The notes under the pieces: model-generated
Seen by the model: the letters and a program-made list of their open reading frames with translations, nothing else
Database searches by the model: none
Told to the model about the DNA's origin: nothing
Position numbers and translations under genes: made by a program
NCBI RefSeq assembly: GCF_004358345.1
Contig: NZ_CP037952.1
Coordinates: forward strand, 2,914,001-2,978,000
Reading direction: 5' to 3'
From: Parashewanella spongiae
GTDB taxonomy: Bacteria; Pseudomonadota; Gammaproteobacteria; Enterobacterales; Shewanellaceae
Length of the DNA: 64,000 nt
Shown: in pieces, positions 26,893 through 34,526 of the stretch
Layout: each line of letters opens with the position of its first letter
How positions within the stretch are numbered: position 1 is the first letter of the stretch

Positions 26893-27183
26893 TTAACTTC
26901 GCTCTTTTTTATTATGCCAAACTCGAACAACAGCGATAGTGAAGTTATCTTCTCTGTATCTTAAAAAATAATTTCCAGCACCAAATGGAATTAAAATTTC
27001 CCGAAAAGAACTCAATCCATCAACTGGCCTCCCTGATTCAGGGTTGTTAGTTAAAGTAAGCGAACCTTCTTTAATTTTAGTTGCTGCTCTTTTTGGAGCA
27101 CTTGGATTTTTTTCTTGGATAAACTCTCTTAACCGCACTAAATCTGTTACTGCATCAGGTAACCAAATTACTTCTCTAGACAT
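26893..27183 (-). CDS. RelE/ParE-superfamily toxin (antitoxin gene truncated)
   Basis: 96 residues: IWLPDAVTDLVRLREFI at the N-terminus, then the NNPESGRPVDGL segment and C-terminal FTIAVVRVWHNKKER, the pattern of ParE/RelE plasmid-stabilisation toxins, which poison gyrase or cut ribosome-bound mRNA. The expected upstream CopG or Phd-type antitoxin is missing apart from a short remnant, cut by an IS630-like fragment. Either the toxin has lost activity or expression, or it is neutralised from elsewhere. All residues seen look intact. Confidence 0.8.
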   Translation of the reverse strand: MSREVIWLPDAVTDLVRLREFIQEKNPSAPKRAATKIKEGSLTLTNNPESGRPVDGLSSFREILIPFGAGNYFLRYREDNFTIAVVRVWHNKKERS

Positions 27184-27215
27184 GCTTTTTCCTGATCAGT
27201 TTCCCAACTATCCGG
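27168..27215 (-). pseudogene. Possible 3' remnant of the antitoxin gene
   Basis: In the frame overlapping the toxin start, the peptide PDSWETDQEKACLEK ends in a TAA 14 bases inside the toxin gene, a typical antitoxin-toxin overlap. Upstream, IS630-like sequence replaces the rest. Short and speculative. Confidence 0.35.
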
Positions 27216-27233: not shown

Positions 27234-27380
27234 CTATTCACAGCGACTTCTCATCAATAGCAAGTAAATTTGGGCGTGTCGTTTCTTATGTTGAGCAACA
27301 CGTGGTTTCTTCTGCTTTATCAAAGCCTCAAGCATTGAACGTTCTTCATTACTCAAACGAACATGGTATTTAACCCTCAT
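27234..27380 (-). pseudogene. IS630-family transposase, N-terminal fragment
   Basis: The 48 residues from the ATG at 27380 (MRVKYHVRLSNEERSMLEAL) match the helix-turn-helix start of IS630-type transposases. The sequence ends at a stop soon after KKRHAQIYLL, so the DDE catalytic domain is missing. It abuts an IS110 fragment on its 5' side with no gap. Confidence 0.6.
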
Positions 27381-27766
27381 CTGAGTTGCTCCTGCTGTGG
27401 CGCTGGAACGAAACTTGACCGAACGAGTCCATAGTGACCGAGTGAAGCGAGCCATTGACTGTCAATGACATCTGTCTTTCGACCGGGAACATTCTTGACA
27501 TGTCTTGCATTAACGACCTGCGTTTTTATGCCAGCAGTAACAAGTGAATGGTAGATGCTTTTCCAGTAAACACCTGTGCTTTCCATTACAGCTAGCTCAA
27601 TATCATGCTGCTTGAGAAAATGGCATAATTTCAAGCGTTCTTTTTTTAAAGTACCAAAGGATTGAGTGATTTCTTCAATTCCCTGCTCTGTCTCCTTGCG
27701 GGTAGTGACCATGACCATCACCTTGTGGACATTCAATCCTGCACAACTTTTTACAATAGGTTCCAT
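27377..27766 (-). pseudogene. IS110-family transposase, N-terminal fragment
   Basis: 129 residues, beginning MEPIVKSCAGLNVHKVMVMV and including AVMESTGVYWKSIYHSL and VKNVPGRKTDVIDSQWLASL. These are the RuvC-like DEDD domain motifs of IS110 elements (first Asp replaced by Asn in GLNVHK). The C-terminal serine domain is absent; the frame ends at LR where IS630-like sequence begins. Full-length relatives are over 300 residues, so it is inactive. It has an upstream start and could still be translated. Confidence 0.8.
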
Positions 27767-28058
27767 AAAATACTACTCCACTGAATTAAAGTGAGTAGCA
27801 GAGCCTAGTGGATAGATTGGATTGCCAAGAACTCTAACGAGAACTGGTCATTTTACCGTTCATTCAATGCGTAAAAGCTAAAATAGCGAGAGTACGAGCA
27901 ACCAGATCCAGATCAGTTTAGGTTCAGTTATGAAAACTAAAAAAATGCGACCACGATTTAAGCTCTGCTAATAGTTAGAATAAAACAGAAAGAATTTTCA
28001 TGCTGTAGGGTGATAGAAAAATAGTTGTCAAAGTAAACGCATATGACATCTATACCTA
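27767..28058. other. Non-coding remnant DNA upstream of the IS110 fragment
   Basis: About 290 bases. The part next to the IS110 gene is probably its left end. The rest shows no gene or repeat I can name. Confidence 0.35.
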
Positions 28059-28768
28059 TCATGAACGAACGTTTAGGTCGTAGATGCCGTGAGGTATGAG
28101 TTTACCATGACCATTACTAGGAAAATCATGATCATTAACGGTTGTCGGCTCAGCGGCATCTGTGACTCCATCACGAAAGTAATTACCTAATTGTTCTTTC
28201 TTTTTTGTATCGATACTCAGGACGGGGTTCCCCTTATCAAGATAGTCTTGTTTCAGTTGAGCCAGTTTTTCAAACTAAGCGTTACGATCGACATATTGCT
28301 TCATCGTTTTGGTTTTCTGAGCCTTACGACGGTGAAAACCCTGCTGACACAATAATCTTGAAACGAGGTTTTTACTGGCGGGTATTCCGTTGGCGTATAG
28401 CTTGCGAGATATTTGTCTACGTGATTGGTTTGTCCACCTTAAATCTTGGCGCATAGGATCACCAGCGGTATGGTTTTTTAGAATTGCCTGCAAATTATCA
28501 TCTAAATCGGGAAAAGTTTATGTCAGCTTTTTTCTACCTCCCCTTTTTTTCTTTGCCCTTTATTGCTCAGCTCTACTTCATCTTCTAACTCATGAATCCC
28601 ACGACTTATAGTTTTGGGGTCACATTTCAATACCTTGGAAATGTATTCTATACCTCCATGCCCAAGTTTTAAGGCTTTAATGGCAGCATATCGTCTACGA
28701 TCTCGTTGATTAAGTGATTTGTAAAAACGTAACATTTGATTCTTTACGGTAGAAGAGTAGGTGTTCAT
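28059..28768 (-). pseudogene. ISAzo13-family transposase pseudogene
   Basis: Pieces of one transposase can be followed through a frameshift and stop codons. The N-terminal part starts at 28768 (MNTYSSTVKNQMLRFYKSL) and carries a helix-turn-helix with LGHGGIEYISKVL. The frame shifts near 28530, continues through PDLDDNLQAILKNHTAGDPM and SRRQISRKLYANGIPASKN, meets an in-frame TAG after the RNA in YVDRNA, and goes on through NPVLSIDTKKKEQLGNYF to PHGIYDLN. HTAGDPM and SIDTKKKE are typical of ISAzo13 elements. Dead, and also cut short at its 3' end. Confidence 0.75.
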
Positions 28769-29070
28769 GATGTTTCAGAGAAAGCTGGGGGAGAAGGCTT
28801 ATATTGAACCACCTTACGAGATTAGGTAAACACGGAAGTTATTTTGGAACAGTTCCTAAGCGCTCACAAACTTTGTGTGATATACGGTAGCGGTTCAACT
28901 GAGGTTGAGCTGACGATCTCTCTTTGATTTGTTACCTTTAAGCCCTATGTTTTGATCAGTCCTGAAATAAACCTGAAACGCCACGTAGTATTAACATGCT
29001 TGCTTCGGATGAATTAATACCAACTTTAAAGTGAGTTCAATCGATCATCTTCACTGTGTTTGGGTGCTAA

Positions 29071-29363: not shown

Positions 29364-29534
29364 TAGAACGGCTAAAACCACAAGATGGCTCTTGTGCCAC
29401 TTAAGATAAGGTTTAAACTGTGAATCCAGAGAGTTGATGAGTTCCATGGCTGTTGGGAGTGTTTTGGTACAACATCCATTATAAAGCACTTTCATCAACT
29501 CACTTTTTGTCGTGTACATTGGTCTGAGATACAA
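29343..29534 (-). pseudogene. Possible transposase N-terminal fragment
   Basis: 63 residues beginning MYLRPMYTTKSELMKVLYNG and ending inside the right end of the MITE-like element (GSVDLS then stop), so whatever gene was here has been cut by that insertion. It looks like a fragment of a DDE transposase, but the family is not certain. Confidence 0.3.
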
Positions 29535-29680
29535 CGATGAGCTATGAAACGGCTCCCCTGTGCGGTGGATAATTTTTTGTTATACATTTATAGAATGCCT
29601 TAAAGCTGAATATTTTTGTATTTATTTTTTTAGTGCGTTATTTATTAGCCTGTTAATTCACTCACTTATTGAGTAATGTG

Positions 29681-32600
29681 ATGGCGACAGTGCGTACTCC
29701 TGCTGAGCAACAATCAATATATAGATTCATGCTCAAAAGTCTCCAAGAATACCCAAGCGAAGCCGTATCCTATCTAAACTTTGAGGTTTCAAAGTTTGAT
29801 GATGATGACGACTTACAACAGGGCTATCAAAGATTAAGCAAAACCGATAGACAAAAGCTGTATGATTTTTTCAACAATAAATCATCGGCGACTCGCTCTA
29901 ACTCTCACACACGAGAGACTCATTATTGTAAGAAGCCAAGTAATGCTTGCCGACGTTTTGCAACCGAGCACCGCTCCATTACTCCAAAATCGAGCACTCA
30001 GTATCCCAAGCAAATACAGCAACCACCTTCCTCCCCTAATTCCTTTTTTACTCAGACCAGTGAGCTTATTCACTCTTGGAAACTTAAACAGAGAAGCAAA
30101 AATAAACTGGGTATTGATTTAAATGCATTAATTGGTGGTTGCACTAAACTTTCTCAGCTTATTGAAATCATTCACAGCCTAAAAAACGACAAACAGGTCA
30201 TGGAAACATCATGGGACATAAGGTTAATCCATAAACTGTTACACAAAGCCGCCGAGTTTTCTGACAGCCATTCATCCAATTTCGACGGCATTTTTAGTGA
30301 CATAATACGATTTAAATCGTCCTATGAAGCGAAAACATGCACACTATTACTGAAATTAATTAAGTTAAATTTAAATTTTTCAGATGCCAAAAGCTTGGTG
30401 CTAGGCAATGCAGCTGAAGCCAGCGTAATGCAGCAATGGGGCATCAAGCCTAATGTTGCCATTTACAGTGCCTTTATCACGGTATGCGCTAAAACTGGCC
30501 AGTTTGATAATGCTTGGCAGCTGGTGCGTGGTGATAAGCCCGTGATGGCACCTCATTTGTCATTAAAATCCAATCAGATCACCTGCATGAATTTGCTGAC
30601 GGCCTGCGCTGAAGCGGGGCGTTATGCCGAAGCTAAATCATTGGTGTTTGGCGATACAGATACAGCCAGCTTAATGCAGCAGTGGGGCATTAAGCCTAAT
30701 GTTGCCATTTACAATGCCTTTATCACGGTATGCGCTAAAACGGGCCAATTTGATAGTGCTTGGCAACTGGTTTGTGGTGATATGCCCGTGATGGCACCTC
30801 ATCTACCACTAAAGGCAGATTCAATCACCTGCATGAATTTGCTGGCTGCCTGCGCTGAAGCGGGGCGTTATGCAGAAGCCACATCATTGGTGTTGGGCGA
30901 TGGCGCTACAGCTAGCTTAATACAACAATGGGGCATCAAGCCTAACGTTGCCATTTACAGCGCCTTTATTACGGTATGCGCTAAAACGGGTCAGTTTGAT
31001 AGTGCTTGGCAACTGGCGTGTGGTAATAAGCCCGTGATGGCACCTCATCTACCACTAAAGGCAGATTCAATTACCTGCATGAATTTGCTGGCGGCCTGCG
31101 CTGAAATGGAACGTTTTACAGAAGCCAAATCATTGGTGTTGGGCGATGGTGCTACAGCCAGCTTAATACAACAATGGGGCATTAAGCCTGATGTTGCCAT
31201 TTACAGTGCCTTTATCACGGTATGCGCTAAAACGGGCCACTTTGATAATGCTTGGCGACTGGTGTGTGGTGATAAGCCTGTGATGGCACCTCATCTACCA
31301 CTAAAGGTCAATAAAATCACCTGCCTGAATTTGCTGAGCGCTTGCGCTGAAGCGGGGCGTTATGCCGAAGCAAAATCATTGCTGTTGGGCGATAGTGATG
31401 CCGATACTGATACAGCCAGCTTAATGCAACAATGGGGCATCAAGGCTGATGTTGCCATTTACAGCGCCTTTATCACGGTATGCGCTAAAACTGGCCAGTT
31501 TGATAGTGCTTGGCAACTGGTGTGTGGTGATAAGCCCGTGATGGCACCTCATTTGCCAATAAAAGCCAATCAAGTCACCTGCACGAATTTGCTGGCTGCC
31601 TGCGCTGAAACGGGGCGTTATGCCGAAGCCAAATCATTGGTGTTGGGCGATGACGATGGCAATACAACTACAGCCAGCTTAATAAAACAATGGGGCATTA
31701 AGCCTGATGTTGCCATTTATAGCGCTTTTATCACGGTATGCGCTAAAACTGGCCACTTTGACAGTGCTTGGCAACTGGTTTGTGGTGATAAGCCCGTGAT
31801 GGCACCTCATCTATCATTAAAGGTAGATTCAATCACCTGCACGAATTTGCTGACTGCCTGCGCTGAGACGGGGCGTTATGCCGAAGCCAAATCATTGGTG
31901 TTGGGCGATGGCGATACAGCCAGCTTAATGCAACAATGGGGTATCAAGCCTAACGTTGCGACTTACAGCGCCTTTATCATGGTATGCGCTAAAACCTGCC
32001 AGTTCGATAGTGCTTGGCAACTGGTGTGTGGTGATAAGCCCGTGATGGCACCTCATTTGTCATTAAAGGCCAATAAAATCACCTGCCTGAATTTGCTGAC
32101 TGCTTGCGCTAAAATAGAACATTTTATAGAAGCCAAATCATTAGTGTTGGGCGATGGCGATACAGCAACAGCTAGCTTAATGCAACAATGGGGCATCGTG
32201 CCAGATGTTGCCATTTACAGCGCCTTTATCACTGTATGCGCTAAAACAGGCCAGTTTGATAGAGCTTGGCAACTGGTGTGTGGTGATAAGCCCGTAATGG
32301 CACCGTATTTGCCATTAAAGGCCAATCAAATCACTTGCATGAATTTGCTGACTGCCTGCGCTGAAGCGGGGCGTTATGCAGAAGCCAAATCATTGGTGTT
32401 GGGCGATACAGTTACAGCTAGCTTAATGCAACAATGGGGCATCAAGCCTGATGTTGCCATTTACAGCGCCTTTATCACGGTATGCGCTAAAACGAGCCAG
32501 TTTGATAGTGCTTGGCAACTGGTGTGTGGTAATAAGCCCGTGATGGCACCTCATCTACCACTAAAGGCAGATTCAATTACCTGCATGAATTTGCTGGCTG

Positions 32601-33691
32601 CCTGCGCTGAAATGGAACGTTTTACAGAAGCCAAATCATTGGTGTTGGGCGATGGTGCTACAGCCAGCTTAATGCAGCAGTGGGGCATCAAGCCTGATGT
32701 TGCCATTTACAGTGCCTTTATCACGGTATGCGCTAAAACTGGCCAGTTTGATAGTGCTTGGAAACTGGTGTGTGGTGATAAGCCCGTGATGGCATCTCAT
32801 TTGCCATTAATAGCCAATCAAATCACCTGCATGAATTTGCTGACGGCCTGCGCTGAAACGGGGCATTATGCAGAAGCCAAATCATTGGTGTTGGGCGATA
32901 GCGATACAGCTACACCCAGCTTAATGCAACAATGGGGCATCAAGCCTAACGTTGCCATTTACAATGCCTTTATCACGGTATGCGCTAAAACGGGCTACTT
33001 TGATAGTGCTTGGCAACTGGTGTGTGGTGATAAGCCCGTGATGGCACCTCATTTGTCATTAAAGGCCAATCAAATCACCTGCATAAATTTGCTGACGGCC
33101 TGCGCTGAAGCGAGACGTTATGCAGAAGCCAAATCATTGGTGTTGGGTGATGTCGACACAACTACAACCAGCTTAATGCAGCAATGGGGCATCAAGCCTG
33201 ATGTTGCCATATACAATGCCTTTACTAAAGTATGTATTAATGCAAAGGAATTTGACATTGGAATATGGTATTTAGAAAAAATAATGAACGAATGTAACAT
33301 GAGTACTACTTCACAAATACATGCTCAGCTTGCGCCGCTTGAAAAAGATAATTTCGCAAGCATGATTGATAAAGGGATAACACAAGGAATATATAAAAAA
33401 AATGTTGGCTTAATGAATCATTGTATCGATTTGCATATGGATAAAATCTTCGAAGGACATTCAGGCGATGGTACACATATTCGAGGTGTTCCATTAGCTT
33501 TCGCAAAACTATTATTTTGTTACCACAAAAAAAACAATGAACCCAAGATAACATCGATCATAACTGGATACCATGGCAATAATACGTTAAAAAATGGAAT
33601 GATAAGTTTTCTCGAAGATGAATTTAGACTTGAGTTTAACGAGGATGAATTCAACTCAGGAATGATAGTATTGAACGAGTCTAGCCATTAA
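29681..33691 (+). CDS. Giant pentatricopeptide-like repeat protein with C-terminal Smr-like domain
   Basis: About 1336 residues. A non-repetitive N-terminal region (1-245; acidic DDDD near 40, basic/Pro-Ser linker 70-130) is followed by 11 tandem units of about 82 residues and a final half unit. Each unit has two PPR-like helical pairs: helix pair A, NVAIYSAFITVCAKTGQFD, and helix pair B, QITCMNLLTACAEAGRYAE. They are joined by GDKPVMAPHLPLK and by an Asp/Thr-rich linker of variable length before QQWGIKP. The C-terminal 100 residues contain IDLH and, after an insertion, TSIITGYHGNNTLKNGM, which fits an Smr domain (DLH and TGxG-type motifs). PPR proteins bind RNA, and Smr domains can cut it, so an RNA-targeting nuclease is the best inference. 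The start is ATG 29681 or the TTG at 29669; the ribosome site is weak. Surrounded by transposon debris. Confidence 0.75.
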   Translation: MATVRTPAEQQSIYRFMLKSLQEYPSEAVSYLNFEVSKFDDDDDLQQGYQRLSKTDRQKLYDFFNNKSSATRSNSHTRETHYCKKPSNACRRFATEHRSITPKSSTQYPKQIQQPPSSPNSFFTQTSELIHSWKLKQRSKNKLGIDLNALIGGCTKLSQLIEIIHSLKNDKQVMETSWDIRLIHKLLHKAAEFSDSHSSNFDGIFSDIIRFKSSYEAKTCTLLLKLIKLNLNFSDAKSLVLGNAAEASVMQQWGIKPNVAIYSAFITVCAKTGQFDNAWQLVRGDKPVMAPHLSLKSNQITCMNLLTACAEAGRYAEAKSLVFGDTDTASLMQQWGIKPNVAIYNAFITVCAKTGQFDSAWQLVCGDMPVMAPHLPLKADSITCMNLLAACAEAGRYAEATSLVLGDGATASLIQQWGIKPNVAIYSAFITVCAKTGQFDSAWQLACGNKPVMAPHLPLKADSITCMNLLAACAEMERFTEAKSLVLGDGATASLIQQWGIKPDVAIYSAFITVCAKTGHFDNAWRLVCGDKPVMAPHLPLKVNKITCLNLLSACAEAGRYAEAKSLLLGDSDADTDTASLMQQWGIKADVAIYSAFITVCAKTGQFDSAWQLVCGDKPVMAPHLPIKANQVTCTNLLAACAETGRYAEAKSLVLGDDDGNTTTASLIKQWGIKPDVAIYSAFITVCAKTGHFDSAWQLVCGDKPVMAPHLSLKVDSITCTNLLTACAETGRYAEAKSLVLGDGDTASLMQQWGIKPNVATYSAFIMVCAKTCQFDSAWQLVCGDKPVMAPHLSLKANKITCLNLLTACAKIEHFIEAKSLVLGDGDTATASLMQQWGIVPDVAIYSAFITVCAKTGQFDRAWQLVCGDKPVMAPYLPLKANQITCMNLLTACAEAGRYAEAKSLVLGDTVTASLMQQWGIKPDVAIYSAFITVCAKTSQFDSAWQLVCGNKPVMAPHLPLKADSITCMNLLAACAEMERFTEAKSLVLGDGATASLMQQWGIKPDVAIYSAFITVCAKTGQFDSAWKLVCGDKPVMASHLPLIANQITCMNLLTACAETGHYAEAKSLVLGDSDTATPSLMQQWGIKPNVAIYNAFITVCAKTGYFDSAWQLVCGDKPVMAPHLSLKANQITCINLLTACAEARRYAEAKSLVLGDVDTTTTSLMQQWGIKPDVAIYNAFTKVCINAKEFDIGIWYLEKIMNECNMSTTSQIHAQLAPLEKDNFASMIDKGITQGIYKKNVGLMNHCIDLHMDKIFEGHSGDGTHIRGVPLAFAKLLFCYHKKNNEPKITSIITGYHGNNTLKNGMISFLEDEFRLEFNEDEFNSGMIVLNESSH

Positions 33692-33842
33692 CTTGATGCT
33701 AGCGAGCACACTTTTTAGTATAATCGCATCATAAAATGAACATCATAGAGCAACGACAATATTATAATGATAACTACTTTTTTGTTTTAATATTCTAAAC
33801 GGTTTGGGGCATAACCTTACCAGCACTTCAATTTAAATTGGA

Positions 33843-34118
33843 TCATCTTTTCTCTCGAGTATGCCAAATTCGAAGGATAAAAAGAACGTCGTCAGTCACT
33901 TCATACCGCATTTCATAGCTACTAATGATTAGTCTACGAACGTCACGGTCAGTAAATGAATCAAGTCTCTCTCCAATAAATGGCTGTTGGATGAGCCGAT
34001 TTGGAGCATCAACCAAAGTTTGTACTGTTTTGGCTGCTGTATTTCGATTAACGTAAGCTAAAAATTCAAATAACCTACTCAAATCGGAGGCTGATTTACT
34101 TGTCCATTTGATTTGCAT
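33843..34118 (-). CDS. ParE/RelE-superfamily toxin
   Basis: 91 residues, starting MQIKWTSKSASDLSRLFEFL, with the middle segment RRLIISSYEMRYEVTDD and ending in ILRIWHTREKR, the consensus of ParE/RelE toxins. Its ATG overlaps the last base of the upstream antitoxin stop, the normal operon arrangement. It should inhibit gyrase or translation when free. This pair is intact, unlike the locus at 26.9 kb. Confidence 0.85.
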   Translation of the reverse strand: MQIKWTSKSASDLSRLFEFLAYVNRNTAAKTVQTLVDAPNRLIQQPFIGERLDSFTDRDVRRLIISSYEMRYEVTDDVLFILRIWHTREKR

Positions 34119-34378
34119 TAACTTGTAACTGATTTGGATTTATCAGTATCTAGACTTTGTGCCCAATCAAGCATTGATTGGTGTTCTATAACATTATTGT
34201 TATCAACATCAGCTAGCGCTTCTAATGTTAACTTATGCCTCTCTTCTTCTTGATCAATCCAAGCGGCTAAAGCTTGTTTCATGATCCATGCCTTCGACCG
34301 TTCTAATCTATTAGCTAAAAGATCAACCTTCTCAGCTAACGGAACTGGAACATGGGCGGTAATAACTTTAGTGTCCAT
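34118..34378 (-). CDS. Ribbon-helix-helix antitoxin of the ParE-type pair
   Basis: 86 residues. The N-terminal segment TKVITAHVPVPLAEKVDLLA with RSKAWIMKQALAAWI is a CopG/RHH DNA-binding domain. The acidic C-terminal half (VIEHQSMLDWAQSLD) is the toxin-binding part. It would repress its own promoter together with the toxin. It lies immediately upstream of the toxin gene with a one-base overlap. Confidence 0.85.
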   Translation of the reverse strand: MDTKVITAHVPVPLAEKVDLLANRLERSKAWIMKQALAAWIDQEEERHKLTLEALADVDNNNVIEHQSMLDWAQSLDTDKSKSVTS

Positions 34379-34526
34379 AATAAAACCTCAAACATAATCT
34401 TTATACATCAAAGTTAATCATAGTGAATAATAAATAGCAAATATACCTCTCAAAAAACGAACGTTTTATGAGACTCAAATATTAACAGGGAAAGATCGGA
34501 ACGAATAACCCTACCCTAAAATATGC

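Follow-up and report, generated by a model that had tools for sequence, protein, structure and literature searches.

The locus examined here raises the question of what a bacterium reads with a very long array of near-identical pentatricopeptide repeat (PPR) motifs, given that PPR proteins are regarded as almost wholly eukaryotic. It lies in a 64,000-nucleotide stretch of the Parashewanella spongiae chromosome (NZ_CP037952.1, positions 2,914,001 to 2,978,000 of the forward strand; hereafter the window, with positions counted from its first nucleotide). Its product is probably a PPR-type protein that binds single-stranded RNA in a sequence-specific way, and about 45 paralogs of the gene, this one included, are dispersed over the chromosome and together would form a repertoire. 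We read the family as a natural, designer-PPR-like set of predicted RNA readers, built like the synthetic PPR proteins, and the amino-acid code that it is predicted to share with plant PPR proteins is highly unusual in a bacterium.

A PPR array and its fold

The gene and its parts were delimited as follows.

29520 to 29680, forward strand: 5′ region common to the paralogs, from flank comparison among copies.
29681 to 33691, forward strand: PPR gene, an open reading frame (ORF) of 1336 residues with an ATG start and an alternative TTG start at 29669, matching Pfam PPR_3 at E 2.8e-62.
29681 to 30328, forward strand: conserved N-terminal region of about 216 residues, from own-genome matches; no Pfam match.
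30329 to 30454, forward strand: leading half unit, a B-type motif with code T/N ahead of the first A motif, from the translation.
30455 to 33202, forward strand: 11 A+B PPR units, from Tandem Repeats Finder, motif parsing and the model of units 9 to 11; unit starts at 30455, 30701, 30947, 31193, 31451, 31709, 31955, 32207, 32453, 32699 and 32951.
33203 to 33310 (end approximate), forward strand: diverged terminal A-type half unit, the twelfth A motif, from motif parsing.
33407 to 33688, forward strand: C-terminal domain, suggestive of Smr, with IDLH at 33425-33436 and TGYH at 33563-33574.
33692 to 33815, forward strand: 3′ region of about 120 nucleotides common to the paralogs, from flank comparison among copies.

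Each unit of 82 to 86 residues consists of two PPR motifs, an A motif of 40 residues and a B motif of 42 to 48, and Tandem Repeats Finder placed the array at 30381-33224 with a period of 246, 11.4 copies and a score of 3748. The first-pass annotation, made from the sequence alone, had counted 11 full and one half PPR-type units of about 82 residues, which agrees with the 11 A+B units and twelfth A motif parsed here. B motif length steps almost always by two residues (42, 44, 46, 48), apparently through growth of a loop of TA dipeptides.

Profile searches assigned the array to the PPR type. PPR_3 scored 207.1 bits against a cut-off of 25, with 9 stretches significant alone; PPR_2 matched at E 1.1e-53 (12 such stretches) and PPR_1 at 1.4e-41 (8 stretches); five PPR models in all exceeded the Pfam cut-offs for the window protein, and the NCBIfam PPR repeat model matched it at 1.7e-36. 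That the array is instead a protein-binding scaffold of TPR or Sel1 type is very improbable. Although TPR_25, the best TPR model (E 4.4e-12), and TPR_IF140_C (1.2e-7) passed their curated cut-offs when scored over the full protein length, neither had a single stretch significant alone, and the unrelated models bMG1 and Gallidermin also passed, evidence that scores for a whole protein become inflated when repeats are summed. The 9 individually significant PPR_3 stretches oppose such a scaffold, and the PPR-type reading of the first-pass annotation was borne out by profile. Eight PHROGs families of unknown function matched the window protein as well, none with an individually significant stretch.

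An AlphaFold2 model of units 9 to 11 and the C-terminus, built from an alignment restricted to units within the window, showed the repeats as paired helices, as had been predicted, with predicted local distance difference test (pLDDT) values per 10-residue block mostly of 72-85 and of 53-69 in loops. When the model was compared with the PDB by Foldseek, the designed cPPR and dPPR proteins ranked first (5orm and 5i9g among the designed consensus PPRs), and these top matches, together with PPR10, likewise speak against a TPR/Sel1 scaffold. Judged from their titles, the 30 matches at E<=0.001 comprised synthetic and designed PPRs along with PPR10 and one entry called simply "RNA binding protein"; the remainder were mitoribosome, assembly-intermediate and plastid RNA polymerase chains whose titles do not name them as PPR. 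These results support a PPR-type array, whose superhelix is judged from the helix pairs and the PDB matches alone.

The paralog family and its distribution

The first-pass annotation had described a single giant protein and missed that the gene belongs to a large dispersed family. In the 5,468,749-base chromosome, the first 244 residues of the window protein found 51 matches and the last 158 residues found 55. From these, 47 stretches were taken and 47 ORFs chosen by length and motif count; one ankyrin chimera and one divergent gene were left out of the main family, and 45 paralogs were kept. The paralogs lie on both strands, dispersed, a few of them in tandem, and 41 of the 45 are complete at the N-terminal as well as the C-terminal end, spanning 588-1426 residues (median 1244). 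Identity between units averages 84.4% inside one protein and 84.1% across proteins, a near-equality that makes the scaffold look homogenised genome-wide. The ratio of nonsynonymous to synonymous substitution rates (dN/dS) was 0.50 for the N-terminal region (ratio of means; 378 pairs from 28 parsable N-termini) and had a median of 0.58 for the C-terminal region (666 pairs from 37 parsable C-termini). Judged by sequence comparison, the copies seem to be held by selection, though not tightly.

Flanking sequence commonly accompanies the gene: over 40 scored places the common 5′ region extends up to about 245 nucleotides before the ATG, some pairs sharing more; upstream of its open frame the window copy retains 137 nucleotides, and other copies often share up to about 245. 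The shared 3′ region ends variably, often 40-125 nucleotides past the stop codon. No precise mobile-element boundary was found among the copies, whose left ends cluster at a few places and whose right ends vary, and inspection of the copy ends by eye found no clear target duplication. The flanks are repeat-rich, 76 of 90 sharing sequence with the flank of another copy, and truncated, interrupted and chimeric copies are present. Ankyrin-repeat ORFs are fused in frame to PPR pieces in stretches L110 (ORF at genome positions 2807337-2810930) and L113 (1348-4263). The genome also holds a second PPR clade with a related C-terminus, in L114 (4059-6995 and 7821-11249), where the genes lie near ankyrin-type genes, and in L096 (2846-5548), and a third, divergent PPR-like gene in L115 (4071-4652 and 6209-7399), apparently split by an inserted ORF.

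Beyond this chromosome the family is scarce. The C-terminal query matched two of 60 genomes, P. spongiae and the congener G004 (a draft assembly with 10 matches, which are divergent), and gave no match in three other congeners (G001, G002 and G003) and 55 further relatives. A class-wide profile search of 369 genomes returned P. spongiae and a genome of 0.3 Mb, whose match is partial (E 8.9e-4) and is taken as chance. PPR_3 was found in two of five congeners and, in a phylum search of limited sensitivity that scores motifs one at a time, in one of 398 Pseudomonadota genomes, that of P. spongiae; PPR_2 was absent from all 14 control genomes, and scans of genome contigs and viral contigs yielded no named relative.

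The rarity of bacterial PPR proteins on which the first-pass annotation had leaned is supported by these counts and by the literature. Prokaryotes typically have no PPR proteins (PMC4029402), and UniProt holds 227,968 eukaryotic and 1,288 bacterial ones (PMC11514114). As of 2010, bacteria had yielded 12 known PPR proteins, all from two species, to which two were then added (PMC2824747); the proteins of Ralstonia, Rhodobacter and Legionella longbeachae resemble the present family in being bacterially encoded PPR motif proteins but, compared by description only, differ in being few per genome (two in L. longbeachae). The open-licence literature, to which the search was confined, yielded no paper describing a comparable expansion of PPR genes in a bacterium, and the excerpted part of a survey of tandem-repeat DNA-binding proteins makes no mention of the present family (PMC11417379). 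The family may have been imported from a eukaryote or have arisen within bacteria, the two origins that the first-pass annotation had raised.

Code residues, possible targets and role

The residues expected to set base preference are the most variable ones of the A motif. Among 365 A motifs of 40 residues, the last position had the highest entropy of all 40 (1.21 bits; N180, D173) and position 5 the second highest (1.08 bits; N191, S170). Canonical pairs occupied 349 of 366 A motifs (NN 105, SD 91, ND 78, SN 75), and the fifth and last residues were nearly independent of each other (chi-square p 0.03). In 323 B motifs, position 5 was M148, L70, T59, I42 or V4 and the last position mainly N190 or D126. 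The code strings of all 45 proteins differ, and the 319 parsed A+B units fall into 315 kinds. The last A codon is AAT in 176 and GAT in 171 of 365 motifs, with almost no synonymous variation. In random samples of 150 motifs, the proportion of nonsynonymous differences (pN) was 0.204 at A code codons versus 0.056 in the A scaffold, and 0.256 at B code codons versus 0.076 in the B scaffold; relative to synonymous differences (pS), scaffold pN/pS was 0.22 in A and 0.33 in B.

In the PPR code, the pair SN specifies A, SD specifies G, ND specifies U and NN specifies C or U. More generally, purines are favoured by S or T at the fifth position and pyrimidines by N there, and a last-position D aligns with U (PMC11094755, PMC11514114). 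Each unit, with its two PPR motifs, would read two nucleotides in parallel orientation; the base at an A motif would be set by the pair of residue 5 and last residue, and the B motif, with its mostly hydrophobic residue 5, would be less specific unless T is present. The strongly specified part of the predicted readout of the window protein is A.U.G.A.AgGaA.A.G.A.C, dots marking weakly specified positions. The copies are proposed to share and homogenise one scaffold while their code residues differ, and with differing code residues on one scaffold each paralog should address a different RNA. Several hundred motifs varying at residue 5 and the last residue on a near-fixed background offer a natural data set on which the PPR code can be tested directly, and the family may represent a bacterial system for programmable RNA targeting of a kind not seen before.

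Known PPR proteins offer two close comparisons. With the P-class PPR proteins of plant organelles (PPR10, 4m59) the family shares the helix-pair superhelix, the variable fifth and last residues and the expected one base per motif; it differs from them in its bacterial chromosome, its alternation of 40-residue A and 42- to 48-residue B motifs and its 84% identity between units. The designed consensus PPRs have the same near-constant scaffold with swapped code residues, whereas the present proteins are natural, have longer motifs, are encoded by about 45 dispersed genes and carry N- and C-terminal regions of their own.

Several results weigh against a repertoire of sequence-specific RNA binders. 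TM-scores by query length, which includes the unmodelled C-terminus, were moderate (0.31-0.46 over the 30 Foldseek matches at E<=0.001), and both motif types exceed the canonical length of about 35 residues, although the profiles still match strongly. Positions 36 (1.06 bits) and 15 (1.04 bits) of the A motif are nearly as variable as the code positions, and positions 1, 9, 14, 15 and -5 of the B motif vary too. In six more distant groups (three clade-2 proteins pooled, one other divergent protein of the same genome and four single G004 proteins) the code positions were not consistently the most variable, with A ranks of 2 to 16 of 34. The A code pN of 0.204 is below the A scaffold pS of 0.257, and the B value of 0.256 is slightly above the pS of 0.226; positive selection is therefore not claimed. 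Furthermore, the predicted readouts of 31 proteins did not exceed those of reshuffled codes on about 525 kb of DNA, a tenth of the genome (mean z 0.05), the same number of proteins did not favour two group II introns (mean z 0.05 and -0.09), and those of 39 proteins did not favour their own loci (mean rank fractions 0.45 and 0.53; expected 0.5). Autoregulation by targeting of the own locus was rejected on these rank fractions.

The repertoire probably acts on RNA, and type III export to a host would be about as likely as action within the cell, with export slightly favoured. Export, in which the proteins would be injected into a eukaryotic host and each paralog would bind a different, perhaps organellar, host transcript, is a tentative proposal by analogy with the transcription activator-like (TAL) effectors; it is compatible with the RNA-binder reading and competes with others on role only. 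Almost identical repeats in which two code residues vary are reminiscent of the TAL effectors, whose repeat-variable diresidues are treated in PMC11514114. As far as the presence of one export component can tell, a type III system is available: TIGR01399 (hrcV) exceeded its curated cut-off in all five congeners, P. spongiae included, with flagellar controls below it; three of these congeners, however, have the export gene and no C-terminal family match. Large ankyrin genes stand beside some PPR genes, two ankyrin ORFs being fused in frame to PPR pieces, and the L. longbeachae PPR proteins are tabulated alongside F-box, U-box and SH2 proteins (PMC2824747). The N-terminus, on the other hand, is by eye unlike an organelle signal. 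If exported, the family would be an RNA-reading analogue of the TAL effectors, with which it shares code-reading arrays of near-identical repeats and multiple paralogs that vary in their code and in how many repeats they have, and from which it differs in its PPR fold, in the expectation of RNA rather than DNA as target and in an export that is putative here.

A role inside the cell, in regulation, in assisting splicing or in defending against selfish RNA (group II introns or phage transcripts, for example), is just as tentative and is likewise drawn from analogy. The models come from plants, in the restorer-of-fertility genes of PPR type, and from splicing factors of the PPR class. Scanning with RF00029 (E<=0.001, up to 150 candidates scored per genome) gave 90 group II intron matches in P. 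spongiae, 79 of them over the gathering score, and 20 in G004, which has PPR genes, versus 15, 1 and 0 in G002, G001 and G003, which have no C-terminal family match; moreover, introns directly adjoin several PPR units. The comparison, however, covers five genomes only, and G002 carries its 15 introns without PPR genes. Nor are introns clearly enriched near the units, with 6 within 500 nucleotides, positions inside units included, versus 3.5 on average and 10 at most in 500 random draws; the codes, as noted above, do not favour the two introns, and PADLOC-DB returned no family at E<=0.01. The link between group II introns and PPR genes may be a coincidence. As separate observations, 59 of the 90 intron matches score identically (41.2 bits); the left edge of a PPR unit coincides with the end of an intron in L084 (2701-2777, forward strand) and at genome positions 3242582-3242658 (forward strand), and oppositely oriented introns lie within about 100 nucleotides past the stop codon in L084 (6770-6854, reverse), L085 (6829-6913, reverse), L090 (2811-2895, forward) and L094 (2817-2901, forward).

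That a unit of some 4 kb has been amplified mainly in a selfish or neutral manner, with code variation as drift tolerated by a relaxed protein, is unlikely. The dN/dS near 0.5-0.6, the repeat-rich flanks and the truncated, interrupted and chimeric copies would fit it, but the open frame with both ends kept in 41 of 45 copies, the confinement of 349 of 366 A code pairs to code-legal residues and the scaffold pN/pS values given above oppose it. For the RNA-reading repertoire, we tentatively propose that the bacterium may have evolved in PPR proteins an RNA counterpart of the TAL-effector system, with a homogenised scaffold and freely reassorted codes addressing many RNAs, either in a host after type III export or within the cell as protein-based RNA targeting or immunity.

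The C-terminal region and the surroundings of the gene

The C-terminal region carries the IDLH and IITGYH motifs claimed by the first-pass annotation, and an Smr domain, to which it assigned them, is plausible; Pfam and PDB profile searches and the single-sequence model gave no support. By eye, the order of an LDxH-type motif, a helix, a TG turn, a helix and a final strand reads like Smr. Over 45 copies, the first motif was IDLH in 34, LDLH in 2, INLH in 2 and not found in 7, and the second was TGYH in 41, TGCH in 1, TGFH in 1 and not found in 2, the second G of TGxG being absent. The fourth TGxG residue was not G in any of eight aligned members; a ninth, dropped from the alignment, lacked both motifs. 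Pfam Smr matched none of 9 C-termini at E up to 5, and PDB profile searches of the C-terminus gave no Smr match. A comparison by hhalign with 17 Smr domains scored 15.7 versus 6.5-11.6 in all 20 column permutations, at a probability of only 1.0-1.7%, and with only two Smr sequences the probability was 0.3%. When eight C-termini were compared with 200 shuffles each by an Smr hidden Markov model (the ninth, least Smr-like member being excluded and unreported shuffles counted as lower), 0, 1, 2, 111, 6, 20, 0 and 0 shuffles scored at least as high as the real sequence. The single-sequence AlphaFold2 model of the C-terminus was unusable (pLDDT 44.7), as was the C-terminus in the model of units 9 to 11. 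Taken together, sequence comparison is no more than suggestive of an Smr-like C-terminus.

The plant PPR-SMR proteins SOT1 and GUN1 have the same plan of a PPR array followed by an LDxH ... TG region in the same order (PMC6662315), but differ in the G at the fourth TGxG residue, which the eight aligned members lack, and in the Smr profile match. In SOT1, LDXH is tied to DNA cleavage and TGXG to RNA cleavage (PMC6662315). In the present family, RNA held by the array would be cleaved or bound by the C-terminal domain, which is probably Smr-like. The nuclease directed at foreign or regulatory RNA that the first-pass annotation proposed is putative, the TGxG motif reading TGYH here.

The window copy sits at a variable spot within conserved surroundings, given that the congeners G001, G002 and G004 have gyrA, serC and the aminotransferase gene in the stretch compared, with no match to the window PPR gene; the G003 stretch lacked an aminotransferase match. 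ORFs of ParE-type toxins flank the gene on the reverse strand at 26893-27195 upstream and, there accompanied by a CopG-type antitoxin, at 33843-34139 and 34118-34387 downstream. Also upstream, an IS110 transposase fragment and fragments resembling another transposase occur at 27377-27772 and 28059-28774, both on the reverse strand.

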